Shown here piece by piece: positions 15,688 through 64,000 of a stretch of 64,000 nt of DNA. Position 1 is the stretch's first letter, and the number at the start of each line of letters is the position of its first letter. The notes under the pieces were generated by a model. It was not told the origin of the DNA, did not search any database, and saw nothing but the letters and a program-made list of their open reading frames with translations. The translations under genes and the position numbers were made by a program. Source of the stretch: Geomonas paludis (GTDB lineage Bacteria; Desulfobacterota; Desulfuromonadia; Geobacterales; Geobacteraceae); NCBI RefSeq assembly GCF_014193585.1, contig NZ_BLXY01000002.1, positions 310,001 to 374,000 on the forward strand. Direction: 5' to 3'.

Positions 15688-15720
15688 CGCGCACCTCCAT
15701 GCCCCGACCACACGTGTAGG

Positions 15721-46124: not shown

Positions 46125-46194
46125 ACCGGCCTCCCTCCGACGCACAACGCGGATAAGGAAATTGGGAACATAAACTAGAAACTGGGGTTTCGAC

Positions 46195-47931
46195 ATGTCC
46201 AACAAGCTATCGGTAAAGATCGTCAGCGTCCTCATCATGGTCATGGTGGTCATCATGACCGCCTTCTCGGTGTACTTCGTCCGTTCGCGCCGCGCCAACA
46301 TGGAGGAGGAGCTCCTCTCCAAGGGGCGCATCCTGGCGCAAACCGGGGCCCGGTCGATGGAACGGATCATGGAGGAGGCGGTGGCCAACGGCACCCTGAC
46401 CCAGGAGCAGCTCTTCGACGATCACTACGTCCCGATACCTAACACCGACCCGCCTAAGTTCCACACCCAGTTCGACCGTTTCATGGACCAGTCGGTGCAG
46501 GCGCTCGAGGACGAATTCCTCAAGGACGACCAGATCGTCTTCGCGGTCCTCACCGACAGAAACGGCTACATCGCGACTCACAACACCAAGTACTCGGCCC
46601 CCCTTACCGGCGACCGGGAGAAGGACAAGCTGAACAACCGCACCAAGCGCATCTTCAGCGACCCGGTCGGGGTCGCCGCGTCGAAGAACGTGGATCCGAT
46701 ACTGAAGCAGGTCTACAAGCGGGACACCGGCGAGACCATGTGGGACCTCTCCGCCCCGGTCTTCGTGAAAGGGAAACACTGGGGCTCCTTCCGGATCGGC
46801 TTCTCGATGGAGAAGACCGAGCAGAAAGGGGCCGACCTCAGGAACCAGATCGTGGGGAGCATGGCGGTCATGCTGCTGGTGGCGAGCATCACCATCCTGG
46901 TGGTGGTGAGCCGCGCGGTGCAGCCCTTGCGCAAGCTGACCGAGAAGGCGCACAAGATCACCGGCGGCGACCTGGACGAGACCATCCCGGTGGAAAGCAA
47001 CGACGAGATCGGCGAACTGGCCGAGGCCTTCAACGTGATGACCACGGTCATCGTCAGGGACCTCAAAGACGAGATCGGCCGCTCCGGGCGCCTGATCGCC
47101 TCGGTCAAGGAGGCGGTGATCCAGCTCTCCAGCGCCGCCAACGAGATGATGGCCATCAGTGCCCAGCAGGCCTCGGGCTCGACCCAGCAGGCGAGCGCGG
47201 TCCAGGAGGTGACCACCACCAGCGAGGAGATCGCCATCACCGCCAAGATGATCACCGGCAACTCCAAGAGCGTCGAGGCGGTCGCCGAGGACACCACCAG
47301 GAACTGCAACAGCGGCCGCGAGGACGTCACCAACGCCATCGACGGCATGGGCCAGGTCAGAAGCCAGGTGCAGAGCATCGCCAAGAGCATGCTGGAGTTG
47401 GGCGACAACAGCCAGAAGATCGGCGGTATCGTGGAGATCATCGACGAGATCAGCGACCAGACCAACCTGCTCGCCCTGAACGCCGCCATCGAGGCGGCGG
47501 GCGCCGGCGAGGCGGGCAAGCGCTTCGCCATCGTGGCCCAGGAGGTGAAGCGCCTGGCCGACCGCACCGTGGAGGCGACGCGCCAGATCAAGGGGCTGAT
47601 CGGCGAGATCCAGCGCGCCACCAACAACACCATCATGGTCACCGAGGAGGGGACCAAGGCGGTCGACGCCGCCTCGCAGCTGGTGGACAAGGTGCAGTTC
47701 TCCTTCGCCTCCATCATGTCCACCGCCCAGGAGACCGCCCGCACCGCCAAGGAGATCACCCTCTCCACCCAGCAGCAGACCTCGGCCTGCGAGCAGATGG
47801 CGGAGACCATGACCGAGGTGCGCGACGTGGCGCAGCAGGTGGCGCTGTCGGCGCACGAGACCGAGAAGGCCATCGCCGAGATCCTGGAACTGGCCGAGCG
47901 CCTGAAGGAGATCACCGAGGAAGAGGCCTAG
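46195..47931 (+). CDS. Methyl-accepting chemotaxis protein
   Basis: A 578-residue receptor. TM1 is about 8-29, followed by a periplasmic sensor of about 185 residues (likely dCache/sCache-like; [15 protein letters not shown]), TM2 about 217-240, HAMP ([20 protein letters not shown]) and a cytoplasmic signalling domain whose tip reads [20 protein letters not shown]. It lacks a C-terminal CheR-tethering pentapeptide. It is encoded within the operon, so it is probably the dedicated input of this CheA. The ligand is unknown. Confidence 0.93.
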
Positions 47932-49974: not shown

Positions 49975-50023
49975 GCCGACGGTTTTCGCGCGCGCACGCG
50001 CCGCTGCCAAGGAAGGAACTACT

Positions 50024-51091
50024 ATGAGCACGAGGGTACTGCTGGCCGACGACTCCCTCCTCGCACGCCAGTTGCTCAAGGACATGCTGCAGGCAGGGGA
50101 CGACATCCGCGTGGTCGGCGAGGCGTGCGACGGCAGGGAGGCGGTGCAACTGGTCCAGGCGCTGCACCCGGACCTGGTGATCATGGACCTGCTGATGCCG
50201 GTCCTGGACGGCCTGGACGCCATCGAGGAGATCATGGCCGTCTGCCCCATCCCGGTGCTGGTCCTTTCCGCCGCCGTTGAGGCCAGCGAGGTGGACCGCG
50301 CCTTCGTCGCCATCAAGCGGGGGGCGCTGGACGTCATGGAGAAGCCGAGGCTGGACGGCGACGGGATGCTGGAGGGGTTCGCTGCCGCGCTGCGGGAAAA
50401 AGTCCAGTTCCTGTCCCGGATCAGGGTCATCAGGCACCCCCGGCGCAAGCTGCGCGCCTGCGAGCCGCTCAGCGTCCTTAGCGACGGCTGCGGGCACAAC
50501 CTGCTCGCCATCGGCGCCTCGACCGGCGGCCCCAAGGCGGTGATGCGCCTGCTGAAGGCCCTGCCTGCGGGTTTCCCGGGCGCGGTGTTCGTGGTGCAGC
50601 ACATCGCCCAGGGCTTTGCGGCCGGCTTCGCCAACTGGCTGGACCGGGAGTGCGCCCTGCCGGTCCGGCTCGCCCGCGACGGCGTCCCCTACCGCAGCGG
50701 CGAGGCGCTGGTGGCCCCCGACGGCAGTCACCTGACCGTGGTCGACGGCGTCATCCGGCTCACCGACGCCCCCCCAGTCAACTGCTGCCGCCCCTCCATC
50801 GACGTCTTCTTCGATTCGCTGGCCCGGCAGCGCTGCGACCAGGTGGTGGCCGTGCTGCTGACCGGCATGGGACGCGACGGGGCCCAGGGCATGCTGCACA
50901 TCAAGGAAGCCGGCGGCAGCACCATCGTCCAGGACGAGCCCTCCTGCGCGGTGTTCGGCATGCCCAAGGCGGCCATAACCCTCGACGCGGCGGACCAGGT
51001 GGTCCCACTGGACCTGATACCGGCCGCCCTGGAGAAACTCTTCGTGGCGGAGCGCCACGAACCCGCATCCACCGGTGCCTCCGCGCCGTAA
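50024..51091 (+). CDS. cheB: CheB chemoreceptor methylesterase
   Basis: A 355-residue protein that removes receptor methyl groups, opposing CheR. Receiver domain at 1-120 with D55 (LVIMDLLMP), then the methylesterase with catalytic Ser in IGASTGGPKA, His in VQHIAQGF and Asp in TGMGRDGAQG. It is complete and of usual length. RBS AAGGAAGG. Confidence 0.95.
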   Translation: MSTRVLLADDSLLARQLLKDMLQAGDDIRVVGEACDGREAVQLVQALHPDLVIMDLLMPVLDGLDAIEEIMAVCPIPVLVLSAAVEASEVDRAFVAIKRGALDVMEKPRLDGDGMLEGFAAALREKVQFLSRIRVIRHPRRKLRACEPLSVLSDGCGHNLLAIGASTGGPKAVMRLLKALPAGFPGAVFVVQHIAQGFAAGFANWLDRECALPVRLARDGVPYRSGEALVAPDGSHLTVVDGVIRLTDAPPVNCCRPSIDVFFDSLARQRCDQVVAVLLTGMGRDGAQGMLHIKEAGGSTIVQDEPSCAVFGMPKAAITLDAADQVVPLDLIPAALEKLFVAERHEPASTGASAP

Positions 51092-51115
51092 CCCCGAACA
51101 GATAGGAGACGCGCC

Positions 51116-51487
51116 TTGAACAAAAAGATACTCATCATCGACGACAGCGAACTGGTGCTGGCCATGGCCAAGGACGCCCTTGATCAGGCAGGCTACCAGG
51201 TGCTCACCGCCACCAACGGCATCGAGGCCAACCGCTTCATCTTCGCCAAGGACCGCCCCGACCTGATCATCATGGACATCATGATGCCCATGCTGGACGG
51301 CAACAAGAAGGCCAAGCTCCTGAAGGAGAACGAGGTGAGCCGGGACATCCCGATCCTGCTCCTCTCCTCCAAAAGCGAGGCCGAGATGCGCGAACTGGTG
51401 GACGAGGCCAAGGCCAACGGCTACATCCTCAAGCCTTTCACGCCGGCGCAGATCATCAAAGCGGTGAGCGCGGTGCTGGCCCGATAA
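51116..51487 (+). CDS. Single-domain response regulator (CheY-like)
   Basis: A 123-residue stand-alone receiver starting at TTG behind ATAGGAGACGCGCC, with the acidic pair DD at 9-10, phosphoacceptor D54 (LIIMDIMMP), a Ser-Ser switch (LLLSS) and the conserved Lys in LKPF. It is the last gene of the chemosensory operon and a likely phosphate acceptor or sink for the hybrid CheA. The output target is not evident. Confidence 0.9.
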   Translation: MNKKILIIDDSELVLAMAKDALDQAGYQVLTATNGIEANRFIFAKDRPDLIIMDIMMPMLDGNKKAKLLKENEVSRDIPILLLSSKSEAEMRELVDEAKANGYILKPFTPAQIIKAVSAVLAR

Positions 51488-51510
51488 CGCCGGGCCCACC
51501 GGGCTCACCC

Positions 51511-51545
51511 GGTGTAAAAAAACGAACAGTTCCTTTTTTTACACC
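51511..51545 (+). terminator. Terminator of the chemosensory operon
   Basis: GGTGTAAAAAAA pairs with TTTTTTTACACC (the right arm is the T-run) and is directly preceded by a second small hairpin, CACCGGG / CCCGGTG. It sits 23 bp after the last stop codon. Confidence 0.7.
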
Positions 51546-51686
51546 GTCCGGACAACTCCCCGTTTTGCCGTCGTTTTGCGCGCCGAGGTGGAGCAGCCGT
51601 AAAAAAACGCACACCCGGCGCCCGCGTCGCCCCCAAAACCGCCCCCAGCAACCAGCCGTTTTCGCAGGGTTTTATCTCGACGTCGT

Positions 51687-51702
51687 TGGCACGGATATTG
51701 GA
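51687..51702 (+). promoter_or_regulatory. Sigma-54-like promoter
   Basis: TGGCACGGATATTGGA has a perfect -24 block and the correct spacing, but the -12 block is TTGGA where TTGCA is expected. It predicts a start about 33 bp before the small gene's ATG. Confidence 0.45.
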
Positions 51703-51746
51703 ACTACGGTCAGGTGTTTCGATGTCAATGCAATCGGGAGAAGACC

Positions 51747-52046
51747 ATGGACCAACAGTACTGCATCATCAACCAGTGCCTCCAGCTGCTCAAGCAAAGC
51801 GATCTGCCCACCATCAAGAAGCTGCGTGTCGAGATACAGCTGATCCAGATGAAACGTCTGCTTTTGAACGACCGGCTCACCAACGACATGGTCACGGGGG
51901 CGTGCGGCGAGGATGTCTTCGAGGGGCTTTTGAACCAGATGCGCAGGATCTGCGGCGAAGGGTCCCAGGGGGATGCGCTAACGGACCTGATGGAGAGGAT
52001 CGGCGGGATGCTGACCGTGCTGGGCGGAGAGCACGCCCACCACTGA
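51747..52046 (+). CDS. Small helical protein of unknown function
   Basis: A 99-residue protein with no recognised family, starting MDQQYCIINQCLQLLKQSDL. It looks fully helical and cytoplasmic, with two Cys near the start and a HAHH end that might bind metal. The ATG at 51747 is preferred over an upstream in-frame ATG because it has GGGAGAAG in front. Its last 69 bases overlap the end of the convergent histidine kinase gene. A sigma-54-like promoter precedes it. Confidence 0.7.
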   Translation: MDQQYCIINQCLQLLKQSDLPTIKKLRVEIQLIQMKRLLLNDRLTNDMVTGACGEDVFEGLLNQMRRICGEGSQGDALTDLMERIGGMLTVLGGEHAHH

Positions 52047-53618
52047 GGCCGGGGCGACCGGGAGCACCACCGTCGCCACGGTCCCCCTGCCGACGGTGGA
52101 GTCGAGCTGCAGCCGGCCCCCGTGCTCGGACACGATGAACTGCGAGATGTACAGCCCAAGCCCGCTGCCGCCCAACTCGAGCTTGGTGGAGTAGAAGGGT
52201 TCGAACAGGCGCTCCATGGTCTCCGGGGCGATGCCGGCCCCGTTGTCGCGCACCTCGACCACCACCTCCCCCTTCCCTGCCTCATGGCGGGTACTGAGAT
52301 GAACCTCGCCGCTCCCCCCCGGACAGGACTGCATGGCGTTGAGGATCAGGTTGATGAGCACCTGCTCGATCTGCTGCTGGCTTCCGGCGATGGCCGGGAT
52401 CGAGGTCCCCAAAGAGGTGTGCAGCTGCACGTCCCGTTTCATCTGGCAGGCGAGCACGGAAAGGGCCGCCGTGACCGCGCTGTTGATCTCCAGCCTCTGG
52501 CGCAGCTGTCCCCCTCCCCCCACCCCGTAATCCCGCAGCCCCTGCACCACCTGGGCGATCCGTTCCGAGTTCTCCACGATCTTGCCCGCATTCTCCGTGA
52601 GCACCAGCCGCGCCTTCTGGTACGGCACCCCGCCCAGGTAGAATTCCCCCTCTTCCTGCCATACCCCGTCCAGCAGGGGGAGGGCGTCGGCCAGCATCTT
52701 GCCGATCATGTGGCCGGAAAAGCGTATCGAGGCGTTGGGGTTGTTGATCTCGTGCGCCATGGAGGAAAGGAGCAGGCCCAGCGAGGTCATCTTGTTGGTC
52801 TGGATCAGCCGGGCCATGACCCGTTTCTTCTCCTCCTGCACCTCCAGCCTCATGGCGCGCAGCAGTTCGTCCTGCAGCGCCAGGTTTTCCAGTTCGCGCA
52901 GCTCCAGGGAGGCCGCCATGGCGTTGATGGCGTTGGCGGCCCGGGCCAGTTCGTCGTCGCCGTCGAGGTCGACCCGGGCGGAGAGGGTGCCGTTGCCGAT
53001 CTTCTCGATTCCCGCCAGGAGCAGGTTGAAGGAGCTGGTGACCCTTTTCAGGATCTGGTAGCACAAAAGGGAGACCAAGATCCAGAACAGGGTGCCGATG
53101 GCCAGCGAGGCGGCCACCAGGGTGACCAGCCGCTCCCGCGCCCCGGAGGTGTCCAGTTTCAGGCGCACCTCGCCGATGACCCGCTGCTCGGTCCCCTGGG
53201 GCTGCCCCAAAAGCGCCGACTCAGGAGAGAGGACACCGCTTGGGGAGCTGATGGGGACCTGCATGTCGATCACGTCCCCGGCGACGGTCTGGGTTTTCAC
53301 CTGCTGTGCCAGCAGCTTTCCCTCGCGATCGACGATGGAGACCGACAGGACGGAGGGGTAGCGCGCAGTTCCCTCGGCCAGGATCCCCAAGGCCTCGCGG
53401 TTTTCGGCAAAAAGCGGCAGGCGCGCGTTCTGGGCCAGCACTGTCGCCAGCAGCTTCCCTTCCCGCTCCATGTTGGAGCGGTAGGCGTTCAACTCGGTGA
53501 GAACATAGAAGGTGACGAAGGCGGCGGTCAGAAGCGCTATGGTGCCGGTGAAGATCAGGTAGAGCCGGAACCGGAAGCTCTTGGCGTACGGCGGCAGGCG
53601 CAGTTTCCTTCTTTTCAT
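51978..53618 (-). CDS. Membrane sensor histidine kinase (NtrB-like)
   Basis: A 546-residue kinase: TM1 about 17-40, a periplasmic sensor of about 135 residues, TM2 about 176-198, HAMP, a coiled coil, then the H-box SSMAHEINNPNASIRFSG, N-box INLILNAMQS and G-boxes DNGAGI and GGSGLGLYIS. The HEINNP variant is typical of kinases that pair with NtrC-type regulators. It starts one base after the binding-protein stop and is the third gene of the TonB-receptor operon. The NtrC-type regulator at 57964-59370 is the likely partner (inference). Confidence 0.92.
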   Translation of the reverse strand: MKRRKLRLPPYAKSFRFRLYLIFTGTIALLTAAFVTFYVLTELNAYRSNMEREGKLLATVLAQNARLPLFAENREALGILAEGTARYPSVLSVSIVDREGKLLAQQVKTQTVAGDVIDMQVPISSPSGVLSPESALLGQPQGTEQRVIGEVRLKLDTSGARERLVTLVAASLAIGTLFWILVSLLCYQILKRVTSSFNLLLAGIEKIGNGTLSARVDLDGDDELARAANAINAMAASLELRELENLALQDELLRAMRLEVQEEKKRVMARLIQTNKMTSLGLLLSSMAHEINNPNASIRFSGHMIGKMLADALPLLDGVWQEEGEFYLGGVPYQKARLVLTENAGKIVENSERIAQVVQGLRDYGVGGGGQLRQRLEINSAVTAALSVLACQMKRDVQLHTSLGTSIPAIAGSQQQIEQVLINLILNAMQSCPGGSGEVHLSTRHEAGKGEVVVEVRDNGAGIAPETMERLFEPFYSTKLELGGSGLGLYISQFIVSEHGGRLQLDSTVGRGTVATVVLPVAPASVVGVLSAQHGQHPADPLHQVR

Positions 53619-53619
53619 G

Positions 53620-54468
53620 TCAGCGCCCCACCACGGTGTTCAGTTTCAACTGGCGCACCACCCCGTCGTTGGTCCTGGTGACCACCCGTCGCGGCGGGTC
53701 CCCCCACTCTTCGGGCTGGTTCCCGTCCAGCACGTTCTGCGCCAGTTCGGCCAGTTGCCGCCCGATGTCGTAGCGGTCGATGGTCAGCGCGACCGCCCCC
53801 CCCATGGAGAGGTAGACGTCGGCGAAGGTGACCACCGGCACCCGCTCCGCCTGGGAAAAGAGGAAGTAGGCCTCGGTGGAGACCGGGGAGACCGCCGTGG
53901 TGTCGGGGAGCATCCAGAGCGCGTCCACCTTCCCCTTCAGCGAGGCGAGCATGGCCGGCGTCTCCTTGGCGGCGTGCACCTCGCGCAACACCAGCTTGAT
54001 ACGGCTGCGCGCGGCCATGCCAAGGGCGCGCTTCACGTAGGCGCCGCTGCGGGCCGGGTCGTAGAGCACGCCGACCCGTTCGCACCCCATCTCCTCCAGG
54101 ACCGACAGGTACTTGCCCGGATCGAGCAGCATGGTGACGCCCCCCGCCAGGCGGCGCGGCTTGGCGTTCAGGGCCATCATGTAGACCACGGGCGTCGCGT
54201 GCTGTTTTTGAGCCAGTTCCAGGGCGCGGTCCCCGACCGCCACGATCAGCTTGGGGTGTTCCTCGCGGTTGATGCGGGTCAGGTCGAGCTCGGCGTAGTC
54301 GGTGAGGACGATGCGTCGCACCGAGCCGCGGTAGTCGCGCTTGAAGCCGCGCACCGCCTCGTCGTACCCCTTGTCGTGCATGGACTGGAGCAGCAGCACA
54401 TCGTAGGCCAGGGCGAGGGTGGGGACCAGGGTGAAGAAGAGCAGGAGCAGGAGTCTCAGAAGTGACAT
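53620..54468 (-). CDS. Periplasmic ABC-type substrate-binding protein
   Basis: A 282-residue exported protein (signal peptide ending ALA near 21) of the TrpX/ABC_sub_bind type, with two alpha/beta lobes: LIVAVGDRALELAQ, VVYMMALN, CERVGVLYDPARSGAYVKRA and VVTFADVYLSMGGAVAL. No ABC permease or ATPase gene accompanies it. It overlaps the TonB-receptor gene by 13 bp and abuts the histidine kinase, so it may act as a ligand-sensing partner of that kinase rather than in transport (inference). Confidence 0.85.
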   Translation of the reverse strand: MSLLRLLLLLFFTLVPTLALAYDVLLLQSMHDKGYDEAVRGFKRDYRGSVRRIVLTDYAELDLTRINREEHPKLIVAVGDRALELAQKQHATPVVYMMALNAKPRRLAGGVTMLLDPGKYLSVLEEMGCERVGVLYDPARSGAYVKRALGMAARSRIKLVLREVHAAKETPAMLASLKGKVDALWMLPDTTAVSPVSTEAYFLFSQAERVPVVTFADVYLSMGGAVALTIDRYDIGRQLAELAQNVLDGNQPEEWGDPPRRVVTRTNDGVVRQLKLNTVVGR

Positions 54469-56285
54469 CTTACCCCCGCTTCCGCCCAGCGCCCCGTGTT
54501 CTTGTAGAGGTCGGAGACGTACTGCTTGCCGTCGAAGATGTTCCTGAGCGAGCCGAAGATTTCCACCGCCCCGAACTGGGGGTACTCAAAGGTCTTGCTG
54601 AGGTGCAGATCCCACAGGACCCCCCCGCTCTTGCCGGCAGGCGCGTTCCAGTCGATGTAGTAGCCGGTCAGCTGCGCCTGCAGCTGCGACGGGTCCCGGT
54701 AGTGCAGGCCGAGCTTCAGGGTGTGCCTGGGTATGGAGCTCAGCTCCGGACCGTCGTCGCCCTCGGTGGCATGGATGTAGGTGTAGCCGGCGCCAAGCGA
54801 GGTGTTGAGGAGCGGGACGGTGCGCAGTTCGAACTCTCCCCCCTGCTTGAGCTGCCGTTTCTTGACCACGCGCCCCCATTCGTTGCTCAGGACGTCCCAG
54901 GTGTCGTTTCTGAACAGGGTGGCCTTGAGCCAGAGATAGGGGATCTCGCCCGATTCGAAGCCCAGTTGGGAGGTCCAGACCTTTTCGGTGGCATCGCCGC
55001 GGTTCAAGGAGGTGAGACTGTACCCCCGGGCGGTATAACCGCGCAACAGGCTGTTTTCGCTCAAGGCGTAGGTGATGCCGAAGCTCGGGCTGAAGCGGTT
55101 GCCGCCGAAGCCGGTCCAGTCGAAGCGGGCACTGGGGGTGATGGCGAAGTTGCCGAGGCTGAAGGTGTCGTTGAGGTAGACGCCGAGCCGGTCCGCGCTC
55201 TTGTCCTGCTCGCCGGGCAGCTGCCCGCCCCGCAACAGGACCCGCACGTGGTCGTAGTCCACCCCGGCCACGACCAGCTGCCAGTCCCCCTGCCAGGAAA
55301 GTTTCAGGGTGCCGCCGGTGCTGTCGTCGTCCTCCAGGCCCCTCTGCAGCACGTTACGGGTCGCGGAGCTGACCACGAACATCTCCATGACGCTCTGCCG
55401 TGTTCTCACTGCTGCATCGAGGGAAAGACGGTTGTCCAGCGGCAACTGCAGGGCAAGCGAAGATATCAGCTCGTGCTTCTGGTCGTTGACGTGGAAGTTA
55501 GGGAAATCAAGGATGCCGGTCTTCTTGTTGGTATAGAGAGTGGAGAGGGTAACCCCTCCACGCACCGGGAGTTCGTAATGCAGCTTGCCGTACAGACTGT
55601 CGAGGTTGGACTGGTTGTTCGGGCGCAGCCCGTCCGAGCGCAGCTTGCCGGCGGAGAGGTAGTAGCCGAGCCGGTCCACCGTGCCGCTCCCTTCGATGCG
55701 TCCATCCACCGTCTCCCGGGTCCCGAAGGAGCCCGAGACCGTGCCCCCGTAGGCGCTGTCCTGCTGCGGCATCTTGGTGATCACGTTGATGACGCCGCCC
55801 AGGGCGCTCCCCCAGGAACTGGACGCGGCCCCCTTGACGATCTCGATCCGGTCGATGATCGCGGCCGGGATGGCGGCCAGGTCAGGGAAATTGTCGGCGA
55901 GGCTGTTGATGGGGACGTTGTCGATCAGGACCAGCACGTGGTCGAAGTCGGAGCCCTGTATCTCTATGTTGGTGTTGGTGCCGGGGGTGCCGATTATCTC
56001 CAGCTGGACACCGGTGATGCTGTAGAGGATTTCGGGCAGGGTGTGCGCGTTCAGGGCCGCGATCTCTTCCGCAGTGACGACGGTGATGTTTTCCGCTGTT
56101 TGGGAAGCGGGTCGGGGCGACCGGCTCGCCGACACCAACTCGGCCCCGCCACCGTTGAAAAGCTCAACCGTACTCAGGTCGTCGTCACAGGTGGCCGGCA
56201 CCACTGTCAGCAGGCAGAGCGCCACAGTCAGCAGTATCGGCCTGACTGCGTCGTACACTGACAAAAACGGGGACGTCTTCCTCAC
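54456..56285 (-). CDS. TonB-dependent outer-membrane receptor
   Basis: A 609-residue outer-membrane receptor starting at GTG behind GAGGAGAGGC. It has a signal peptide, a plug domain (ENITVVTAEEIAALNAHTLP; VLVLIDNVPINSLAD; IDRIEIVKGAASSSWGSALG) and a beta-barrel ending in the typical aromatic residue (GVRCHF). It is of the compact, vitamin B12/colicin-receptor-like kind. The substrate is unknown. It heads a minus-strand operon with the binding protein and kinase, and is divergent from the peptide/radical-SAM pair, which suggests that its ligand is connected to that peptide or to a metal or cofactor it binds. Confidence 0.93.
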   Translation of the reverse strand: MRKTSPFLSVYDAVRPILLTVALCLLTVVPATCDDDLSTVELFNGGGAELVSASRSPRPASQTAENITVVTAEEIAALNAHTLPEILYSITGVQLEIIGTPGTNTNIEIQGSDFDHVLVLIDNVPINSLADNFPDLAAIPAAIIDRIEIVKGAASSSWGSALGGVINVITKMPQQDSAYGGTVSGSFGTRETVDGRIEGSGTVDRLGYYLSAGKLRSDGLRPNNQSNLDSLYGKLHYELPVRGGVTLSTLYTNKKTGILDFPNFHVNDQKHELISSLALQLPLDNRLSLDAAVRTRQSVMEMFVVSSATRNVLQRGLEDDDSTGGTLKLSWQGDWQLVVAGVDYDHVRVLLRGGQLPGEQDKSADRLGVYLNDTFSLGNFAITPSARFDWTGFGGNRFSPSFGITYALSENSLLRGYTARGYSLTSLNRGDATEKVWTSQLGFESGEIPYLWLKATLFRNDTWDVLSNEWGRVVKKRQLKQGGEFELRTVPLLNTSLGAGYTYIHATEGDDGPELSSIPRHTLKLGLHYRDPSQLQAQLTGYYIDWNAPAGKSGGVLWDLHLSKTFEYPQFGAVEIFGSLRNIFDGKQYVSDLYKNTGRWAEAGVRCHF

Positions 56286-56368
56286 ACGCCTCTCCTCATA
56301 AAAAAAATCAAATTTATTATTGCAGACAATTTAAACTTTTGTTAATTTATCACAGCAGGTTAAATAAG

Positions 56369-56384
56369 TCCAAGGTTTTTACCA
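56369..56384 (-). promoter_or_regulatory. Weak sigma-54-like promoter facing the TonB-receptor operon
   Basis: The minus strand reads TGGTAAAAACCTTGGA. GG is present at -24 with correct spacing, but the -12 element is TTGGA, not TTGCA. It is of interest because the adjacent regulator is sigma-54-dependent and the same TTGGA variant occurs at 51687-51702. Confidence 0.3.
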
Positions 56385-56404
56385 CATCAAAGGAGGAAAC
56401 CGCT

Positions 56405-56521
56405 ATGGCAACAGAAAATCTGGCAGTGGAGATTCTCGATGAGGGCAACAACATGTCTGAGTCTGTGACGAACGGGTTGGGGTGCTGCTTCTATATGTAC
56501 ATCTGGGCCAGCCCGTTATGA
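56405..56521 (+). CDS. 38-residue RiPP precursor peptide, geopeptide-like
   Basis: The ATG follows the strong RBS AAAGGAGGAAACCGCT. The peptide has a 23-residue acidic leader (MATENLAVEILDEGNNMSES then VTN) and a hydrophobic core GLGCCFYMYIWASPL with two adjacent Cys and four aromatic residues. It is immediately followed by a radical SAM/SPASM maturase gene, the standard RiPP arrangement. From memory, a Geobacter 'geopeptide' family with its own radical SAM maturase has been described; I infer that this is a member. The final product, export and function are unknown, and no exporter is encoded here. Confidence 0.82.
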   Translation: MATENLAVEILDEGNNMSESVTNGLGCCFYMYIWASPL

Positions 56522-56531
56522 CAAACCCCTT

Positions 56532-56563
56532 GTCTCGCCTTCCTCCCAGGCGGAAGGCGAGAC
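56532..56563 (+). terminator. Hairpin between peptide and maturase genes
   Basis: A perfect 12-bp stem, GTCTCGCCTTCC with GGAAGGCGAGAC, has an 8-nt loop, 10 bp after the peptide stop. There is no T-run (TCTGT follows), so it is more likely a partial terminator or mRNA-stabilising hairpin giving more peptide than enzyme. Confidence 0.65.
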
Positions 56564-56632
56564 TCTGTACCATGCCGCCTAGATAGGATTTCCGTCCGCA
56601 AAATCGACGTTGCCACACAGGTGTCAATCACC

Positions 56633-57970
56633 ATGAGACTTTCCAGCTACCTGAAGATCTTCCCCTCCCCCGACCGTCCCGGTCACGTCCTCCTCTACTC
56701 GACCCTGCGCGGCTCGGTCGCCGCGATCTCCTCGGAGACGCTGGCGGCCCTGCAAGCGGGTGACGTTCCCGCCGCCGGCTGCGAGGCGCTGACCCGACTG
56801 GGCATGCTGGTAGAAGACCCCGTTGCCGAAAAGGAGACGATGCGCGGCCTGATCGCGCGCGCCAACGCCGAGGCGCGCGAATTCAAGGTTTCCGTGGTCC
56901 TGAATCTCGACTGCAACCTCGACTGCGGCTACTGCTTCGAAGGGGAGTTCCGCTGCGGCCACTACATGTCGGAGCAGACCGCCGACCTCCTGGTGCAGAC
57001 GCTGGTGCGGGACCGGGTCGCCCGGGGATGGGATCTCACCGTTTCCTTTTACGGTGGCGAGCCGCTCCTGTCGCTGGACCTGATCCTGCGCATCTCGCAG
57101 CAGCTGCACGATGCCGCCCAAAGCCACGGCGTCAGGTACGCCTTCACCCTGGTTACCAACGGCACCCTCCTGGACAGAAGCACCGCGTTGCGGCTGCTCC
57201 CCCTGGGCCTGCAGGGGGCGAAGTTCACCCTGGACGGCCCGCAGGAGATTCACGACGTCCAGCGCCCCTACGCCTCCGGCGCCGGGAGCTTCGACGTGGT
57301 GGCGGGAAACCTCGCCCAGGTCTGTAACCTCATCTCGATCCAACTGGGAGCCAACTTCAAGCGCGACAACTACCGGGAGTTTCCGCGCCTTTTGGACCAG
57401 CTCCCCCTGTACGGCATCACTCCCGACCAGCTGGCCGTGGTGATGTTCACGCCGGTCATGTCCACCGGCGCCTGCGCGGATTTCAACTCGGGGTGTGCCA
57501 TATCGGAGGAGCCGTGGCTTTTGGAGGCGATTCCGTTTTTGCGCGAGGCGACTCTGGCGCGCGGGTATCGCGCCCCGTCGCCCAAGCCGTCGGCCTGCAT
57601 CGTGGAACTGGACAACTCGCTGGTGATCGACTGCACCGGGAAGTTCTACAAGTGCCCTGCGTTCATGGGGTGGGAAGAGCTGAGTGTCGGCAGCCTGACG
57701 GAGGGGTTACGGGATTTCGGAGTTTCGCATGGAATCGGGAATTGGCAGCAGGAGGCCTGCCTTGAGTGCAGCTACCTCCCACTTTGCTTCGGTGGCTGCC
57801 GGCTGGTGACCAAACTGCAGGATAAGGCATTGACCGAGGTGGACTGCCGGCGCACGTTCTACGACGCCACCCTGGAACAGACCGTGCTGCAGAACCTCAC
57901 CTACCTGGCACCCAGGAAAAAGGCGGCCGCCCAGAGCGCTCCGCCCCCGGTCGCCGCACCTTCCTACTGA
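56633..57970 (+). CDS. Radical SAM/SPASM peptide maturase
   Basis: A 445-residue enzyme. The radical SAM 4Fe-4S motif is CNLDCGYC (CX3CX2C, about 94-101), followed by SFYGGEPLL and a TIM-barrel. The C-terminal SPASM region has the auxiliary-cluster cysteines CTGKFYKCPAF, CLECSYLPLCFGGCRL and DCRR. Such enzymes modify the neighbouring precursor peptide, for example by thioether or C-C bond formation. Residues 1-80 may be a RiPP recognition element. I prefer the ATG (AGGTG 9 bp upstream) to a GTG four codons earlier. The gene overlaps the convergent regulator gene by 7 bp. Confidence 0.92.
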   Translation: MRLSSYLKIFPSPDRPGHVLLYSTLRGSVAAISSETLAALQAGDVPAAGCEALTRLGMLVEDPVAEKETMRGLIARANAEAREFKVSVVLNLDCNLDCGYCFEGEFRCGHYMSEQTADLLVQTLVRDRVARGWDLTVSFYGGEPLLSLDLILRISQQLHDAAQSHGVRYAFTLVTNGTLLDRSTALRLLPLGLQGAKFTLDGPQEIHDVQRPYASGAGSFDVVAGNLAQVCNLISIQLGANFKRDNYREFPRLLDQLPLYGITPDQLAVVMFTPVMSTGACADFNSGCAISEEPWLLEAIPFLREATLARGYRAPSPKPSACIVELDNSLVIDCTGKFYKCPAFMGWEELSVGSLTEGLRDFGVSHGIGNWQQEACLECSYLPLCFGGCRLVTKLQDKALTEVDCRRTFYDATLEQTVLQNLTYLAPRKKAAAQSAPPPVAAPSY

Positions 57971-59370
57971 CGCTCCTGTTTCAACCTCTTGTTCAGGGTC
58001 GGCCTGGTAAGTCCCAAAAGCTCCGCCGCCTGGGTCTGGTTGCCGTTGGTCAGTTTCATGGCCTCGGCAATCAGGTACTCCTCCACCTGCATCACCGTGG
58101 GAAATCTCCCGAACACCGAAAACAAGGCGTTGCCGCCGCATTCGACCGGCTGCGCCGCCCGGACCGGCACCGCCGCCACCCCCGGGAAGTCCGCGACCGA
58201 CAAGGGCGCCCCCTCGTTGCAGGTGACCGCGTGGTGCACCATGTTGTACAGCTCGCGCACGTTACCCGGGTACCGGCACTGCTGCAGGGCCGCGATTACG
58301 GTCTGCGGCACCCTGGGAGCCGGCTTCCCCTGCTGCGCCGCGATCTGGTGCACGAAGTAATCCACCAGTGCCTCGATGTCCTCGAGGCGCTCGCGCAAGG
58401 GGGGCACCCGGAACTCGTGGGCGCACAGGCGGTAGTAGAGGTCGTTTCGGAAGGTCCCGGCGGCGCGCAGGGCGGCGAAGTCCATATTGGAGGCGGCCAC
58501 GATCCGGGCGTCGCTTTTGAGCAGCAGGTCCGAACCGAGCCGGTAGTACTCCCTTTCCTGCAAAAGCCGCAACAGCTTGATCTGGGAGGCGAGGTTCAGG
58601 TCGCCGATCTCGTCCAGGAACAGCGTGCCGCCGGCGGCGGCGCTGATGAGACCGTCGCGCTTGCTGTCGGCGCCGGTGAAGGCCCCCTTCTTGTGTCCGA
58701 AGAGGGTGTCGGAGAACATGAAATCGTCGAGCCCTGCGGCGTTGAGCGAGATGAAAGGCCCCGGCACACCCGAGACCGCGTGCACCGCGCGCGCCAGCAG
58801 TTCCTTGCCCACCCCGGTCTCACCGGTGATGAGGACCGGCAGACGGGAGCTGGCGATGGCCTCGATGTACTGGAAGATGCCGCGCATCTTCTTGGACGTG
58901 GTGATGATGCCGGCGAAGGCGTCCGGGTTGCCCAGGGTGTCCGCCAGCAGGTAGTCCTTGAGCTTGCGGTTTTGCTGCCCGAGCTCGCTCACCTGGAGCG
59001 CCTTCTTGACGCTGGCCACCAGGCGGTTGGGGTCCACCGGCTTGGTGAGGAAGTCGAAGGCCCCCTGGCGCATGCAGGTCACCGCGGTCTCCACGTCCCC
59101 CATCGCGGTCATCACGATCACCGGGATCTCCGGGTGCTCCACGGTCAGGCTCTGCAGGATCTCGGCGCCGGTCACGTTGGGCATGACCCAGTCCAGGATC
59201 ACCGCGCTCACCTTGTGCTCCCGGACGTAGCGGATCACCTGGCGGCTGTCGGAGATGGTCGCCACCCCGGGGATGTCGCTCGAGGCGAGCAGCAGCGACA
59301 CCTCGGTGAGGATCCCCGGCTCGTCGTCCACGAGCAGCGTGTGTTGTTGTGTGGTCATCGTGGCTGTCAT
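57964..59370 (-). CDS. NtrC-type sigma-54-dependent response regulator
   Basis: A 468-residue activator with a receiver domain with D60 (VILDWVMPN), an AAA+ domain with Walker A GETGVGKE at 183-190, sigma-54-contact loop GAFTGA at 229-234 and Walker B GGTLFLDEIGD, and a C-terminal Fis-type helix-turn-helix (NQTQAAELLGLTRPTLNKRL). The intact GAFTGA loop means that its targets need sigma-54. It converges on the maturase gene. With the kinase at 51978-53618 it probably forms a two-component system around the peptide cassette. Confidence 0.94.
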   Translation of the reverse strand: MTATMTTQQHTLLVDDEPGILTEVSLLLASSDIPGVATISDSRQVIRYVREHKVSAVILDWVMPNVTGAEILQSLTVEHPEIPVIVMTAMGDVETAVTCMRQGAFDFLTKPVDPNRLVASVKKALQVSELGQQNRKLKDYLLADTLGNPDAFAGIITTSKKMRGIFQYIEAIASSRLPVLITGETGVGKELLARAVHAVSGVPGPFISLNAAGLDDFMFSDTLFGHKKGAFTGADSKRDGLISAAAGGTLFLDEIGDLNLASQIKLLRLLQEREYYRLGSDLLLKSDARIVAASNMDFAALRAAGTFRNDLYYRLCAHEFRVPPLRERLEDIEALVDYFVHQIAAQQGKPAPRVPQTVIAALQQCRYPGNVRELYNMVHHAVTCNEGAPLSVADFPGVAAVPVRAAQPVECGGNALFSVFGRFPTVMQVEEYLIAEAMKLTNGNQTQAAELLGLTRPTLNKRLKQERQ

Positions 59371-59561
59371 TGCACCGCCCAGGCTAGAAGTGTCTATTTA
59401 AAGGATTCACATCATATCCGTTCGCGGGGCGATATTCAACTGTTTCTTGACCAGGTTCGCAAAACCTGACGCCGACGGCAGCGCGACGGTGTTGCAATTC
59501 CGGACGAAATGGGCATAATCTAAACCCTTGATCCGAACCATCACCCATTGGGAGGCGTGCC

Positions 59562-60134
59562 TTGAACCCCAGAGCTCTCCTTGAGAAATACTTCCACAAC
59601 AACAGCCAGGGGCTGGAAATCGTCTACCGGCACAGCCGCCGCGTCGCCGACAAGGCGCTCGCCATCGCCGCACGCGGCGGCAGAAGCGAAGCCGAACTGC
59701 TCTTCATCGAGGAAGCGGCCCTTCTGCACGACATCGGCGTCGCCCGCACCTACTCCCCCAGGCTCAACTGCTTCGGCAAGGCGCCCTACATCTGCCACGG
59801 CGTCATCGGCCGGCAGATGCTGGACTCCGAGGGACTGCCGCAGCACGCCCTGGTCTGCGAGCGCCACATCGGCGTCGGCCTCACCGCCCGCGACATCGTG
59901 GACCAGAAGCTGCGCCTGCCGCTGCGCGAGATGTCACCGGTCACCGACTGCGAGCGCATCGTGGCCCTGGCCGACCTCTTCTACTCCAAAAAAGGGGGGG
60001 AACTGGACCTGGAGAAAAGCACGGACCAGGTGAGGTCCGACCTGCTCCGCTTCGGACAGGAGAAGGTGCGCATCTTCGAGAGCTGGCTGCGCGAGTTCAG
60101 CCTCGACGGCGCCGCCCCCGCCCCATCTAATTAG
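59562..60134 (+). CDS. HD-domain phosphohydrolase-like protein
   Basis: A 190-residue soluble protein beginning at TTG behind GGGAGG. HD metal-site residues are visible: YRHSRRV (H24), LLHDIGV (H56, D57), ICHGVIG and ERHIGVG. The compact HD fold resembles YedJ/uridylyl-removing-like hydrolases and is not an HD-GYP. The substrate is unknown. It is monocistronic or weakly linked to the next gene. Confidence 0.85.
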   Translation: MNPRALLEKYFHNNSQGLEIVYRHSRRVADKALAIAARGGRSEAELLFIEEAALLHDIGVARTYSPRLNCFGKAPYICHGVIGRQMLDSEGLPQHALVCERHIGVGLTARDIVDQKLRLPLREMSPVTDCERIVALADLFYSKKGGELDLEKSTDQVRSDLLRFGQEKVRIFESWLREFSLDGAAPAPSN

Positions 60135-60261
60135 CTCCCCGCCCCTTTCCGGCCAACGAAGTGTGCTATACTGTAAGCGCCCAGCCTCACTGGGCATTTT
60201 CCGGGATAGCGCACCTGTTACGCCCCCGGTCTATCATGTGCTTGCCACGGTAGGTGTTTTC

Positions 60262-62175
60262 ATGGGTAAACCGCTCCGCGTGCTGATTGTGGAAGACTCC
60301 GAGGACGACGCCCTGCTCCTCATCTTCGAGTTGCGCCGCGGCAACTACGCGCCGGTCTCCCGGCGGGTGGAGAGCGCCGAGGCCATGCGCAGGGCGCTGG
60401 AGGAGGAGGACTGGGACCTGGTGGTCTCGGACTACGTCCTCCCCGGCTTCACGGGGCTGGAAGCACTGCAGGTGCTGCGCGACTCCGGTCTGGACATCCC
60501 CTTCATCATCGTTTCCGGCAAGATCGGCGAAGACACCGCGGTGGGCGCCATGAAGGAAGGGGCCAACGACTACCTGATCAAGGGGAACACCTCACGCCTG
60601 ATCCCGGCCATCGAGCGCGAGATGCAGGAAGCGCAGGTGCGCCGCAAGAAGCGCGAGGCGGAAGCGGCGCTGGTAAGGAGCGAACGGCGCTACAAGAGGC
60701 TGGTGGCCGCCGTCACCGACTACATCTACACGGTCACCATCAGCGAAGGCAACGTGACCAGGACCTCGCACGGCCCGGGCTGCCTCTCGGTCACCGGCTA
60801 CAGCGACGAGGAGTACCAGGAAAACCCCTTTCTCTGGTACCAGATGATCCACGAGGAGGACCGCCCCGCCGTGACCAGCCTGACCGAGGAGCTGCGCGCC
60901 GGCAAGGAGATCCCTTCGGTCGAGCACCGGATCCGGCACAAGGACGGCTCGCTGCGCTGGGTCATCAACACGGTCGTGCCGCGCTACAGCGAGCAGGGGG
61001 ACCTGATCGCCTACGACGGCCTGATCTCGGACATCTCCGAGCGCAAACAGGCCGAGGAGTCGCTGCGGGTGCAAAGCGCCGCCCTGGAGGCGGCGGCCAA
61101 CGCCATCGTGATCACCGACAGCAACGGGCTGGTGCTCTCGGTCAACGAGGCCTTCACCAGGATGACCGGCTACACCAAGGAGGAGTCCGTCGGGCGCGAC
61201 CTGGGTTTTCTCAAATCGGACCGGCAGGACCCCGCCCTGTACCAGGACCTTTGGTCCACCATCATGGCCGGCAAGATCTGGCACGGCGAGCTGGTGAACC
61301 GGCGCAAGAACGGCGAGCTCTACCCCGAGGAACAGACCATCACGCCGGTCCTGGACCCGGACGGCCACATCAAGCACTTCATCTGCATCAAGCAGGACAT
61401 CACCGAGCGCAAGCTGGCGGAACAGGCCCTCTTGCAGAACACCAGCATGCACAAGGAGATGGAGATCGCCAGGCAGATCCAGCTCTCGCTGCTGCCCGCC
61501 GCGCCGCCGCTTCTGACCGGTATCGACTGCGCCGGGCGCTGCGTGCCGGCCAGCCACATCGGCGGCGACTACTACGATATCCTGCTGCACGGCGAACGGC
61601 TCGACCTGGTGATCGCGGACGTCTCCGGGCACAGCGTGGGGGCGGCGCTGATCATGGTGGAAACGCGCAGCGTGCTGCGGGCCCAGATGCCTGCGCTGGA
61701 CGGCCCCGCCCAGGTGGTGGCGGCCCTGAACGAGATCCTGCACGACGACCTCTCCCGCGCCGAACTGTTCATCACCATGTCCTACCTGAGCTACCACAGG
61801 ACCTCCGGCAGGCTGCGCTACAGTAACGCCGGCCACCCCCCGCCCCTGCTCTACCGCCCCGGCGAGGAGCGCTTCTTCGAACTGGATGCGGAGGGGCTCA
61901 TCCTGGGGGTGCAGCGCAGGGTCGCCTTCGACGAACCGGTCATGCAGGTGGAAAAAGGGGACCTGCTGCTGCTCTACACCGACGGCATCACCGAGACCCA
62001 GAGCCGCTCGGGAGAGCTGTTCGGAGTACAGCGGCTGAAGGGGGTGCTGGCCCGCGAGTACCGCAAACCGTCCGCAGCCATCATCGACGCCACGCTCGAT
62101 GCCTTGCGCGCCTTCACCGGCAACACCGCCTTCGACGACGACATCTCCATGCTCCTGCTCAAATTTATCCCCTGA
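60262..62175 (+). CDS. Response regulator with PAS sensors and PP2C-type phosphatase output
   Basis: A 637-residue protein: receiver at 1-120 with D57 (LVVSDYVLPG), PAS about 145-265, second PAS about 270-385, linker helix, then a SpoIIE/RsbU-type PP2C domain from about 410 (GGDYYDILLHG; DVSGHSVGAALIM; NAGHPPPLLYRPG; LLYTDGITETQ). Such proteins dephosphorylate anti-anti-sigma factors in partner-switching pathways. No such partner is encoded nearby. The ATG at 60262 directly starts the receiver; the frame is open 33 codons upstream. Confidence 0.92.
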   Translation: MGKPLRVLIVEDSEDDALLLIFELRRGNYAPVSRRVESAEAMRRALEEEDWDLVVSDYVLPGFTGLEALQVLRDSGLDIPFIIVSGKIGEDTAVGAMKEGANDYLIKGNTSRLIPAIEREMQEAQVRRKKREAEAALVRSERRYKRLVAAVTDYIYTVTISEGNVTRTSHGPGCLSVTGYSDEEYQENPFLWYQMIHEEDRPAVTSLTEELRAGKEIPSVEHRIRHKDGSLRWVINTVVPRYSEQGDLIAYDGLISDISERKQAEESLRVQSAALEAAANAIVITDSNGLVLSVNEAFTRMTGYTKEESVGRDLGFLKSDRQDPALYQDLWSTIMAGKIWHGELVNRRKNGELYPEEQTITPVLDPDGHIKHFICIKQDITERKLAEQALLQNTSMHKEMEIARQIQLSLLPAAPPLLTGIDCAGRCVPASHIGGDYYDILLHGERLDLVIADVSGHSVGAALIMVETRSVLRAQMPALDGPAQVVAALNEILHDDLSRAELFITMSYLSYHRTSGRLRYSNAGHPPPLLYRPGEERFFELDAEGLILGVQRRVAFDEPVMQVEKGDLLLLYTDGITETQSRSGELFGVQRLKGVLAREYRKPSAAIIDATLDALRAFTGNTAFDDDISMLLLKFIP

Positions 62176-62264
62176 GTCATCTCCCCTTCCCGTATTACTT
62201 TTCTTGACGGCACGCTCCGTGATGGTGTAAACATACGCCATTCCATCGAAACAGGGGTGTGCAC

Positions 62265-63353
62265 ATGGCGAAAAAGATCTTCGTTGCGGCGACCGGACAA
62301 AACTGTGGCAAGACGACCATCAGCATTTCGCTCATGCACCAGGCCAGGAAGAAGTACCAGCGGGTCGGTTTCGTGAAACCGTTCGGCCCCAAGGTGCTGC
62401 TCTACGACGACTTCATGGTGGACATGGACGCCCTGCTCATGGCCAAGGCGTTCGGACTGGAAGAGGACATCGCGCTGATGTCGCCGGTGGCGCTGTACCG
62501 GGATTTCACCAAGGATTACCTGGCGGGGAAGCTGGACGACCTCTCCCTGGCCGACTGCATCCTGGAGGCGGTGCGGGAGCTGGAGCAGAAATACGACTTC
62601 CTGATCATCGAGGGGGCGGGACATGGCGGCGTCGGCGCCGTGATCGGCCTCTCCAACGCCAAGGTAGCCAAGCTGATCGGCGCGCCGGTCATGATCGTGA
62701 GCGAGAGCGGCATCGGCAAGGTGATCGACGCGGTGCACCTGAACCTGGCCCTGTACGAACGGGAAGGTGCGGACGTGAGGGGGATCATCGTCAACAAGAT
62801 GAAGCCCAGCAAGAAGGAAGTCACCACCAAGTACCTGAAGCGCGCCTTCGAGCCGCAGATCAAGGTAATCGACGGCTTCAACTACTCGCCGATCCTCGCC
62901 AACCCGACCCTGAGCCACATCTCCAAGCTTTTCGACCTGCCGCTGCAGGGGAACATCAACGAGAAAAGCAGGATCATCCACAACATCCAGCTGGGCGCCG
63001 CCTCTTCGCAGCGGGTGATCGACGGGCTGCTCGATTCGACCCTGATGATCGTAACCAGCTCCCGTGACGAACTGATCGTCACCCTCTCTTCGCTGTACCA
63101 CATCCCCGCCTACAAGGAGAAGATTGCCGGGCTGGTAATCTCCGGGCACGTGCCGGTGTCGGAGGTGAGCCAGCAGATCCTGCACGACTCGCACATCCCC
63201 TACATCCGGGTCGAGGAGACCACGGCCGAAGTCTTCACCGCGCTCTCCGACGACGTGGCCAAGATCACCTACGAAGACCAGGAGAAACTGAACTGGATCA
63301 TGGCCAACGCCGAGCGCGACGTGGACTTCGCGGCCATCGATGCGCTGCTGTAA
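62265..63353 (+). CDS. AAA_26/DRTGG-domain protein (BioD-like P-loop)
   Basis: A 362-residue protein resembling the N-terminal regulatory part of long phosphotransacetylases. The BioD-like P-loop domain has Walker A ATGQNCGKTT at about 9-18 and FLIIEGAGHGG near 120. A DRTGG domain follows (about 215-330; GAASSQRVIDGLLDSTLMIV). No acetyltransferase domain follows, so it is a stand-alone regulator-like member of unknown role. I chose the ATG with AGGGGTG 5-6 bp upstream over an in-frame GTG two codons before it. Confidence 0.85.
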   Translation: MAKKIFVAATGQNCGKTTISISLMHQARKKYQRVGFVKPFGPKVLLYDDFMVDMDALLMAKAFGLEEDIALMSPVALYRDFTKDYLAGKLDDLSLADCILEAVRELEQKYDFLIIEGAGHGGVGAVIGLSNAKVAKLIGAPVMIVSESGIGKVIDAVHLNLALYEREGADVRGIIVNKMKPSKKEVTTKYLKRAFEPQIKVIDGFNYSPILANPTLSHISKLFDLPLQGNINEKSRIIHNIQLGAASSQRVIDGLLDSTLMIVTSSRDELIVTLSSLYHIPAYKEKIAGLVISGHVPVSEVSQQILHDSHIPYIRVEETTAEVFTALSDDVAKITYEDQEKLNWIMANAERDVDFAAIDALL

Positions 63354-63362
63354 AACAAAAAC

Positions 63363-63401
63363 AGGGGCTGGGGACCCCCTTGCTCCCAGTCCCCAGCCCC
63401 T
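63363..63401 (+). terminator. Hairpin after the DRTGG gene
   Basis: AGGGGCTGGGGA pairs perfectly with TCCCCAGCCCCT, 10 bp after the stop codon. It has no T-run but is a plausible transcript end. Confidence 0.5.
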
Positions 63402-63425
63402 ACTCCCCTAGTCCCCTGCTTTAAA

Positions 63426-63455
63426 GGGGACTGGCACCTGGCGGAGCCAGTCCCC
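63426..63455. repeat. Dispersed 30-bp palindrome, copy 4
   Basis: Arms GGGGACTGGC and GCCAGTCCCC are perfect inverse copies, with core ACCTGGCGGA. It has the same orientation as copy 3 and lies between convergent genes. Confidence 0.75.
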
Positions 63456-63475
63456 CTAGTCCCTAGCCCCTGCCT

Positions 63476-63868
63476 TTAAATCTTGTTCCCCGGAGGCTTC
63501 GTGGGTATCTCCTGCTCCTTCTGGCACTCGACGCAGTACGGGGTGAAGGGCATCAGCTTCAGCCGCGGCAAGCCGATCGGCTGGCCGCACCCCTCGCACG
63601 TGCCGTAGGTCCCCAGTTCCACACGCCGCTGCGCTTCCTCCAACGCGGTAAGCTGCTGCCGCCTGATGTCGGCCACGGCGAGCCCGGCGTCGGAGAGCAC
63701 GTCCAGCATGCTCTTCTCACCCGGGTCCTGCGGTATGTCGTACTGGGTCGCCAGGTCCTCCCCGGTCTGTGCAAAAACCTCGTCGCGCAGGTCGGCCCAG
63801 AGCCGGCGTTTATACTCCGCCAGCAGGTTACTGAATTCGAGCTGATCACCTTCCAGTTTTTCCGGCAT
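63476..63868 (-). CDS. DksA/TraR-family zinc-finger protein
   Basis: A 130-residue protein with an N-terminal coiled coil (about 1-80) and a C4 zinc finger (CEGC, 17 residues, CVEC). DksA-type proteins bind the RNA polymerase secondary channel and adjust transcription with ppGpp; many shorter paralogues have unknown targets. The coiled-coil tip motif of true DksA (DxxDxA) is not evident, so this is called a family member only. Confidence 0.9.
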   Translation of the reverse strand: MPEKLEGDQLEFSNLLAEYKRRLWADLRDEVFAQTGEDLATQYDIPQDPGEKSMLDVLSDAGLAVADIRRQQLTALEEAQRRVELGTYGTCEGCGQPIGLPRLKLMPFTPYCVECQKEQEIPTKPPGNKI

Positions 63869-63936
63869 GTCATCCTCCTAGAACCGGAAGCCGCCCCCGG
63901 CCCCGGCGCCTTGCCACATGAGGGGAAATCACCACA

Positions 63937-64000
63937 TCAGGGAACGTCCTCGACGTCGCACAACGGACAGAAGAGTTCGCCGCTCTCCTTGTCCCGTTGC
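63937..64000 (-). CDS. C-terminal end of a small protein with a CPLC motif (partial)
   Basis: The last 20 codons before a TGA read QRDKESGELFCPLCDVEDVP. The CPLC pair suggests a zinc-binding end. The rest lies beyond the right edge, so the family cannot be told. Confidence 0.45.
   Translation of the reverse strand, partial: QRDKESGELFCPLCDVEDVP

Follow-up and report, generated by a model that had tools for sequence, protein, structure and literature searches.

Identification of a geopeptide precursor and its maturase

What is made by a 38-codon gene that lies upstream of a radical SAM/SPASM enzyme gene in Geomonas paludis, and what might the surrounding genes do with the product? The original prediction, drawn from the window (the whole 64,000-nucleotide stretch of DNA analysed here), was a two-gene, geopeptide-type RiPP system with an undescribed product. 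The elements of this pair are listed below.

56320..56346, plus strand: promoter-like block TTGC-N16-TGTTAAT, a conserved pattern 85 bp upstream of the precursor start
56389..56396, plus strand: ribosome-binding site of the precursor, AAAGGAGG, read from the sequence
56405..56521, plus strand: geopeptide precursor, 38 aa, matching TIGR04229 at 27.7 bits against a cut-off of 30 (E 1.6e-6) and with conserved relatives
56532..56563, plus strand: stem-loop in the precursor-maturase gap, arms of 12 bp (RNA fold z -2.56)
56633..57970, plus strand: radical SAM/SPASM geopeptide maturase, 445 aa, matching TIGR04280 at 628.7 bits; alternative GTG start at 56621

We assigned the pair, as a new member, to a RiPP family that already has a name in NCBIfam (TIGR04229/TIGR04280). 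The maturase lies far above the 400-bit cut-off of TIGR04280, 'geopeptide radical SAM maturase', and the leader and Cys-Cys core encoded next to it resemble those of the family. The precursor differs in its aromatic tail and in falling 2.3 bits short of the cut-off of TIGR04229, 'geopeptide', a near-miss. When its own genome was scanned with TIGR04229, the precursor site came top at 26.3 bits, with the runner-up at 12.3. The claim of an undescribed product holds insofar as we found no dedicated study of the geopeptide family in the literature searched, which had most subscription journals and bioRxiv outside its scope; it is qualified insofar as the family already carries a name.

Translation from the ATG at 56405 to the stop at 56519-56521 gives MATENLAVEILDEGNNMSESVTNGLGCCFYMYIWASPL. 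The leader contains the motif LAVEILDEG, with five acidic and no basic residues among the first 23, and the core, GLGCCFYMYIWASPL, combines two adjacent Cys with F, Y, Y and W. The acidic leader, the composition of the core and the strong ribosome-binding site ahead of this tiny gene were all read correctly in the original prediction, as was the same-strand enzyme gene downstream. The enzyme more likely starts at ATG 56633 than at GTG 56621, because its relatives start at M-x-LSxYLK.

Several lines of evidence place the enzyme among RiPP maturases rather than in a non-RiPP radical SAM family. The maturase families listed next after TIGR04280 (CefB, TIGR04463, Clo7bot, PapB, nif11 and SCIFF) all score far below their own cut-offs, and the SPASM model TIGR04085 matches at 47.4 bits against a cut-off of 27. 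In an alignment of 18 maturases, the Cx3Cx2C motif at CNLDCGYC (C98, C102, C105) and the SPASM-type cysteines C345, C380, C383, C389, C393 and C409 are invariant, a pattern that we take to be the radical SAM/SPASM signature. An AlphaFold model of the enzyme (pLDDT 86.9) has 5why/5wgg as its best Foldseek match (E 3.8e-21, TM 0.64/0.68), and the closest solved structure by sequence profile is also 5wgg (111 bits). These entries are titled as thioether bond formation, and 5why is the enzyme CteB. In the model, the segment before the radical SAM core forms three strands followed by helices, an arrangement that would be compatible with a RiPP recognition element. Geomonas species account for the four nearest named relatives, with maturase identities of 77-92%.

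Conservation of the precursor and variety of its core

TIGR04280 exceeds its cut-off in all 19 genomes of the genus, in 42 of 48 genomes of the family and in 31 of 395 genomes drawn across the phylum. For comparison of loci we took the best 80 of 169 confirmed loci from a scan of named genomes, records titled Nitrospirae among them, and added the window to give 81. A precursor profile, begun with 14 typed seeds and refined by retraining on the hits it gave, was then run on the 15,003 small ORFs of these loci. The pairing had been predicted to stand or fall with conservation of the peptide beside orthologous maturases, and a precursor was found upstream of the maturase in 73 of the 81 loci. Five of these matches are weak, with E from 0.007 to 0.29 (L134, L122, L111, L079 and L119). 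Four of the eight loci that gave no match are truncated by a contig end (L074, L113, L118 and L124) and one holds a one-Cys variant (L135); the others are L127, L128 and L136. Because the profile was trained and tested on overlapping sets of loci, its E-values err on the optimistic side, and the control is the near absence of matches elsewhere in the 81 loci, where the profile picked up three more geopeptide-like ORFs and two matches at E 0.36 and 0.72.

The Cys pair is retained as CC in 73 of 75 precursors and appears as CxC in the other two, and the tail after CC measures 7-10 residues in 70 of the 73 CC precursors. Across 102 distinct precursors, of which a Cys-filtered list supplied 27, the residue most often found at +8 is Arg, an uncontrolled count of 36 among the 86 tails that reach that position. 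The Cys-filtered search, carried out on 33 phylum-wide loci, returned a plausible precursor in 27, plus one in L163 with a wider span; it demanded Cys pairs and is no test of their conservation. The short, aromatic core had been called unlike most known sactipeptides. Among geopeptides, aromatic tails (FYMYIW, WAVFAFTF) are typical of the window's own Geomonas/Citrifermentans group, whereas many other Geobacterales have small-residue tails, as in the core CCTAGSTSARN.

Two loci carry tandem precursors before a single maturase, both copies ending in CCWAVFAFTF (L066) or CCWAVFLFTF (L067). At L045 and L135, a precursor-like ORF beside a geopeptide maturase has a one-Cys core (IGICFGSYFIVRG), and such precursors might reveal which Cys is dispensable.

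Two non-coding signals accompany the precursor gene. Stems of 8 bp or longer form in the precursor-maturase gap at 67 of 72 loci; the corresponding figures are 144 of 360 for base shuffles and 29 of 72 for upstream stretches. This is as expected for a structure separating a highly expressed precursor from an enzyme gene. Upstream, the pattern TTG[CT]N15-17TG[TC]TAA[TC], which was composed after inspecting the sequences, occurs at 11 of 73 loci against a mean of 0.18 in base shuffles. All 11 fall within the 12-locus Geomonas/Citrifermentans group (the window and L057-L067), in which only L063 lacks the block.

A receptor, a binding protein and a kinase recur at geopeptide loci

The neighbourhood of the pair holds four further genes.

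51978..53618, minus strand: histidine kinase (sCache_4, HAMP, HATPase_c by Pfam), 1 bp after the binding-protein gene
53620..54468, minus strand: PF04392 periplasmic substrate-binding protein (Pfam, 54.3 bits), overlapping the receptor gene by 13 bp
54456..56285, minus strand, divergent from the precursor: TonB-dependent outer-membrane receptor (Pfam Plug and TonB barrel)
57964..59370, minus strand, convergent with the maturase: sigma-54 response regulator (receiver, AAA+ and Fis HTH by Pfam)

Among named relatives, BtuB matches the receptor plug best. The PF04392 protein has, judged by eye, a signal-peptide-like N-terminus, and its fold is closest to Trp-bound 3LFT and to CD0873. The two-gene description of the locus was right about the pair and too narrow about the system, since the divergent run at 51978-56285 (receptor, binding protein and kinase) is part of one recurrent module with it. 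We found no description of this receptor-binding protein-kinase module of geopeptide loci in the literature searched, with the same limits on journals as above.

Other features of the window lie beyond this gene set. Chemotaxis-type genes, encoding a CheB-like methylesterase and a lone receiver, adjoin the cluster at 50024-51487, and on the same side L057 has, in addition, a methyl-accepting protein and a kinase of the CheA type that contains CheW and receiver domains. At the left end, a giant open frame (5237 aa or more) occupies 1-15711 on the minus strand, extends past the window end and crosses the most GC-rich stretch (10-14 kb, 74% GC); two 1000-aa samples of it gave no Pfam match at E 0.001.

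An all-against-all comparison of ORFs of at least 90 aa in the 81 loci brought out the module. After the maturase, the commonest groups were the receptor (75 loci), the kinase (56), the PF04392 protein (53, plus 12 in a second group) and the sigma-54 regulator (31). Profiles made from these groups were scored on 120 loci, comprising the 81, the 33 phylum-wide loci and 6 more; ten proteins from six loci all matched their expected Pfam families over cut-off. Of the 120 loci, 112 had a receptor no more than 6 kb from the maturase and 104 a binding protein no more than 7 kb away; with the limit set at 9 kb, 89 had a kinase and 38 a regulator. The picture is clearer in the 67 full-flank loci, those with at least 7 kb on each side of the maturase, a set that excludes the window because only 6 kb follow its maturase. 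Here the receptor and the PF04392 protein are each present in 66 of 67, the kinase within 9 kb in 63 and the sigma-54 regulator within 9 kb in 30. In 61 of these loci no more than 1.2 kb separates receptor and maturase, and in 57 no more than 800 bp separates receptor and binding protein. The single full-flank locus with neither receptor nor binding protein, L173 (G078), has a maturase of 307 bits, under the family cut-off, and is probably a different peptide system.

Because some of the 120 loci are the same locus twice, we collapsed the full-flank set at 70% maturase identity; receptor and binding protein were each retained in 40 of the resulting 41 groups. The 81 loci trained the profiles and the 33 phylum-wide loci did not, though a few of them coincide with some of the 81. 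Of these 33, 29 have the receptor, and the other four are L173 and three loci cut by a contig end. Chance offers little of an explanation for the receptor: 14 whole genomes, hand-chosen and some of them lacking a maturase, contain 52 Plug domains, about one per Mb, which puts chance nearness to a maturase near 1%.

Kinases call for more caution. HATPase_c domains number 79 to 150 per genome in four genomes, with 140 in the 5.1 Mb genome of the window itself, and about half of all 9-kb spans would hold a kinase by chance, so its presence within that distance says little. We replaced this measure with a kinase gene adjoining the binding-protein gene (within 400 bp on the same strand), which is seen in 56 full-flank loci and absent in 11. 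The sigma-54 regulator is the least constant part and its place in the module is less certain. A group that follows the kinase in the Nitrospirae loci L119, L122, L133 and L136 is of the LuxR type, as judged from a Pfam check of two members; a simple switch of regulator class in Nitrospirota was not fully upheld, as L113 has a sigma-54-type one. Upstream of the 73 precursors, sigma-54 promoters (-24/-12) are no commoner than in base shuffles, which leaves the idea of autoinduction by the neighbouring regulator unsupported.

Transport and processing genes did not emerge as part of the module. Among the 21 gene groups common to at least five loci (ORFs of at least 90 aa), no permease or exporter was found near the maturase and no protease among the recurrent neighbours. 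Module genes and chromosomal neighbours from Geomonas make up the groups represented near the maturase, and four further, unassigned groups lie 8-10 kb away in Geomonas. The sole ABC ATPase group has none of its eight members near a maturase.

Receptor sets apart from maturases and genomes with several clusters

We surveyed 14 genomes for adjacent TonB and PF04392 genes, matched by hand, and found 18 pairs, 13 beside a maturase and 5 elsewhere (G000:C5, G018 at 4.98 Mb, G042, G043 and G370). The G042 pair ends at a contig end, and the G370 pair was set aside as a distant look-alike, to which the module profiles give no more than 166 and 64 bits. True orphan receptor sets are L175 and L176, both from Geomonas, and L178; L177 ends at a contig end. 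At L175 (G000:C5:22000-41000, in the window's own genome) and L176 (in a second genome of the genus), the TonB and PF04392 genes are accompanied by a divergent kinase gene. The orphan receptors are 46-51% identical to their nearest maturase-linked receptors, and no geopeptide-like small ORF was found at L175, L176 or L178 (best small-ORF E 0.23). These three sets rule out a strict dependence of receptor sets on a maturase; they could be listeners or could serve another ligand.

Six genomes have two to four clusters each. A receptor is near 13 of their 14 clusters, the exception, L167, being cut by a contig end, and cores differ between clusters within one genome. Of these genomes, G144 and G068 each consist of a single contig, whereas G017, 6.6 Mb in 370 contigs, could be a mixed assembly.

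When 11 genes of the Geomonas-group locus (the window and L057-L067) were compared, receptor and maturase were the most divergent, with mean identities of 0.60 and 0.63. The binding protein stands at 0.71, the kinase at 0.77, the regulator at 0.84 and flanking genes at 0.73-0.90. Maturase and receptor distances correlate moderately (Spearman 0.48) and their nearest neighbours agree in 53 of 81 cases, which we do not take as proof of a functional tie because shared descent alone gives the same result.

A tentative model of uptake and sensing, and its alternatives

We tentatively read the geopeptide module as one conserved gene set by which a RiPP is made, taken up and sensed, an account that we rate somewhat short of an even chance. 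The CteB-like maturase would act on the small peptide whose gene lies about 110 bp ahead of its own, a step that is supported, with the conserved leader motif [ILV]xVLxEG as its probable recognition site. It may then link either or both of the adjacent Cys to residues of the 7-10 residue tail, with thioethers as the likeliest bond by analogy with the enzyme's nearest relatives; a thioether from Cys to a side-chain or alpha carbon is what marks ranthipeptides and sactipeptides. Leader removal and export would fall to proteins encoded elsewhere, because no gene for either recurs in the cluster. Synteny suggests the later steps, in which the extracellular peptide would cross the outer membrane via its cognate TonB receptor, and the PF04392 protein would then capture it and report to the histidine kinase and response regulator. 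We place the end point at sensing rather than nutrient import because no permease recurs. Also in favour of the model are the clusters of one genome that differ in core and have receptors of their own, and the divergence of receptor and maturase in the Geomonas-group locus. What fits best is a self-recognition (autoinducer-like) signal, or sensing of a ligand-loaded peptide.

Some observations count against sensing. Orphan receptor sets indicate that the receptor is not strictly tied to a nearby peptide gene, 11 of the 67 full-flank loci have no kinase beside the binding protein and just 30 have the sigma-54 regulator, and the best structural match of the binding protein holds a single Trp rather than a peptide. 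Our estimate rests mainly on the receptor and the binding protein.

The same receptor frequency, together with the vicinal Cys pair in 73 of 75 precursors, would also suit a metallophore: a Cys-Cys peptide that binds metal outside the cell and is retrieved as a complex by the TonB receptor, like methanobactin with copper, while the binding protein and kinase report metal status. Methanobactin operons lend this some weight, since the passages of PMC3621798 that describe them couple a peptide precursor with a TonB transporter, in some cases with a trans-envelope, FecIRA-like regulator. Those passages, however, give the operons MbnB/MbnC, a MATE exporter and a FecIR-like regulator, where the window has a radical SAM enzyme, PF04392 and two-component genes; none of 13 window proteins around the precursor has a Pfam match to MbnB (DUF692/MNIO). 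Thioether formation would moreover consume the thiols, recurrent neighbours include no inner-membrane importer and, beyond CC and the frequent Arg at +8, the core is variable and offers no constant ligand set. We consider a metallophore unlikely.

Less probable still is that the receptor set serves a separate ligand, such as a corrinoid or an aromatic compound, and that the peptide stays inside the cell, for example as a cofactor made upon sensing that ligand. The BtuB-like plug, the resemblance of the binding protein to a Trp-bound protein and the receptor sets that lack a maturase all lean this way. Against it, the region 46000-64000 has no Rfam match at E up to 1, hence no cobalamin riboswitch, cores vary more than would be expected of a cofactor, and clusters of one genome have different cores and separate receptors. 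Core variation between species beside similar leaders is what one would look for in a bacteriocin-like weapon that enters related cells by a TonB receptor and harms them, and narrow-spectrum bacteriocins commonly enter through such receptors. Yet the producer itself has the receptor in 66 of 67 full-flank loci, recurrent neighbours include neither an immunity gene nor an exporter, and the binding protein and kinase would have no obvious role, which makes a weapon very improbable.

Relation to known systems and implications

Compared with its own family, the sensing model adds genes that the geopeptide names do not include, namely the receptor, the binding protein and the kinase. CteB and the other SCIFF (ranthipeptide) maturases are likewise SPASM enzymes and provide the closest structure by profile (5wgg) and by fold (5why). 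We know of no SCIFF cluster with a TonB receptor and a kinase. SCIFF peptides have six Cys in about 45 residues, whereas the window precursor has two adjacent Cys in 38 and lies outside that definition. The binding protein shares its fold and Pfam family with 3LFT and CD0873 (6HNI), which, judging by their titles, belong to ABC import or adhesion; loci of the window type instead have a kinase gene adjoining and no recurrent permease. In peptide autoinducer systems, a secreted peptide activates its own two-component system, whereas geopeptide loci show synteny with a kinase and, less often, a regulator. According to a title cited in PMC8326336, ranthipeptides derived from SCIFF have a reported part in clostridial quorum sensing.

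By naming receptor, binding-protein and kinase neighbours, this survey turns an orphan RiPP family into a testable functional proposal about the makers of the peptide, the receptor that admits it and the targets that the kinase turns on, and paralogous clusters within single genomes supply ready-made specificity tests. The proposal is relevant to Geobacter-type metal reducers of soils and sediments, in which we know of no peptide signalling of this kind. A broader reading, that geopeptides are private peptide signals of Gram-negative anaerobes, cross-linked at Cys-Cys by a radical SAM enzyme, released, re-entering by their own TonB receptor, passed on to a periplasmic binding protein and read out by a kinase, is in our judgement doubtful. 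If true, it would describe a quorum-sensing-type circuit gated by TonB-driven passage across the outer membrane, with parallel channels of different specificity within a single genome and receptor-only listeners.
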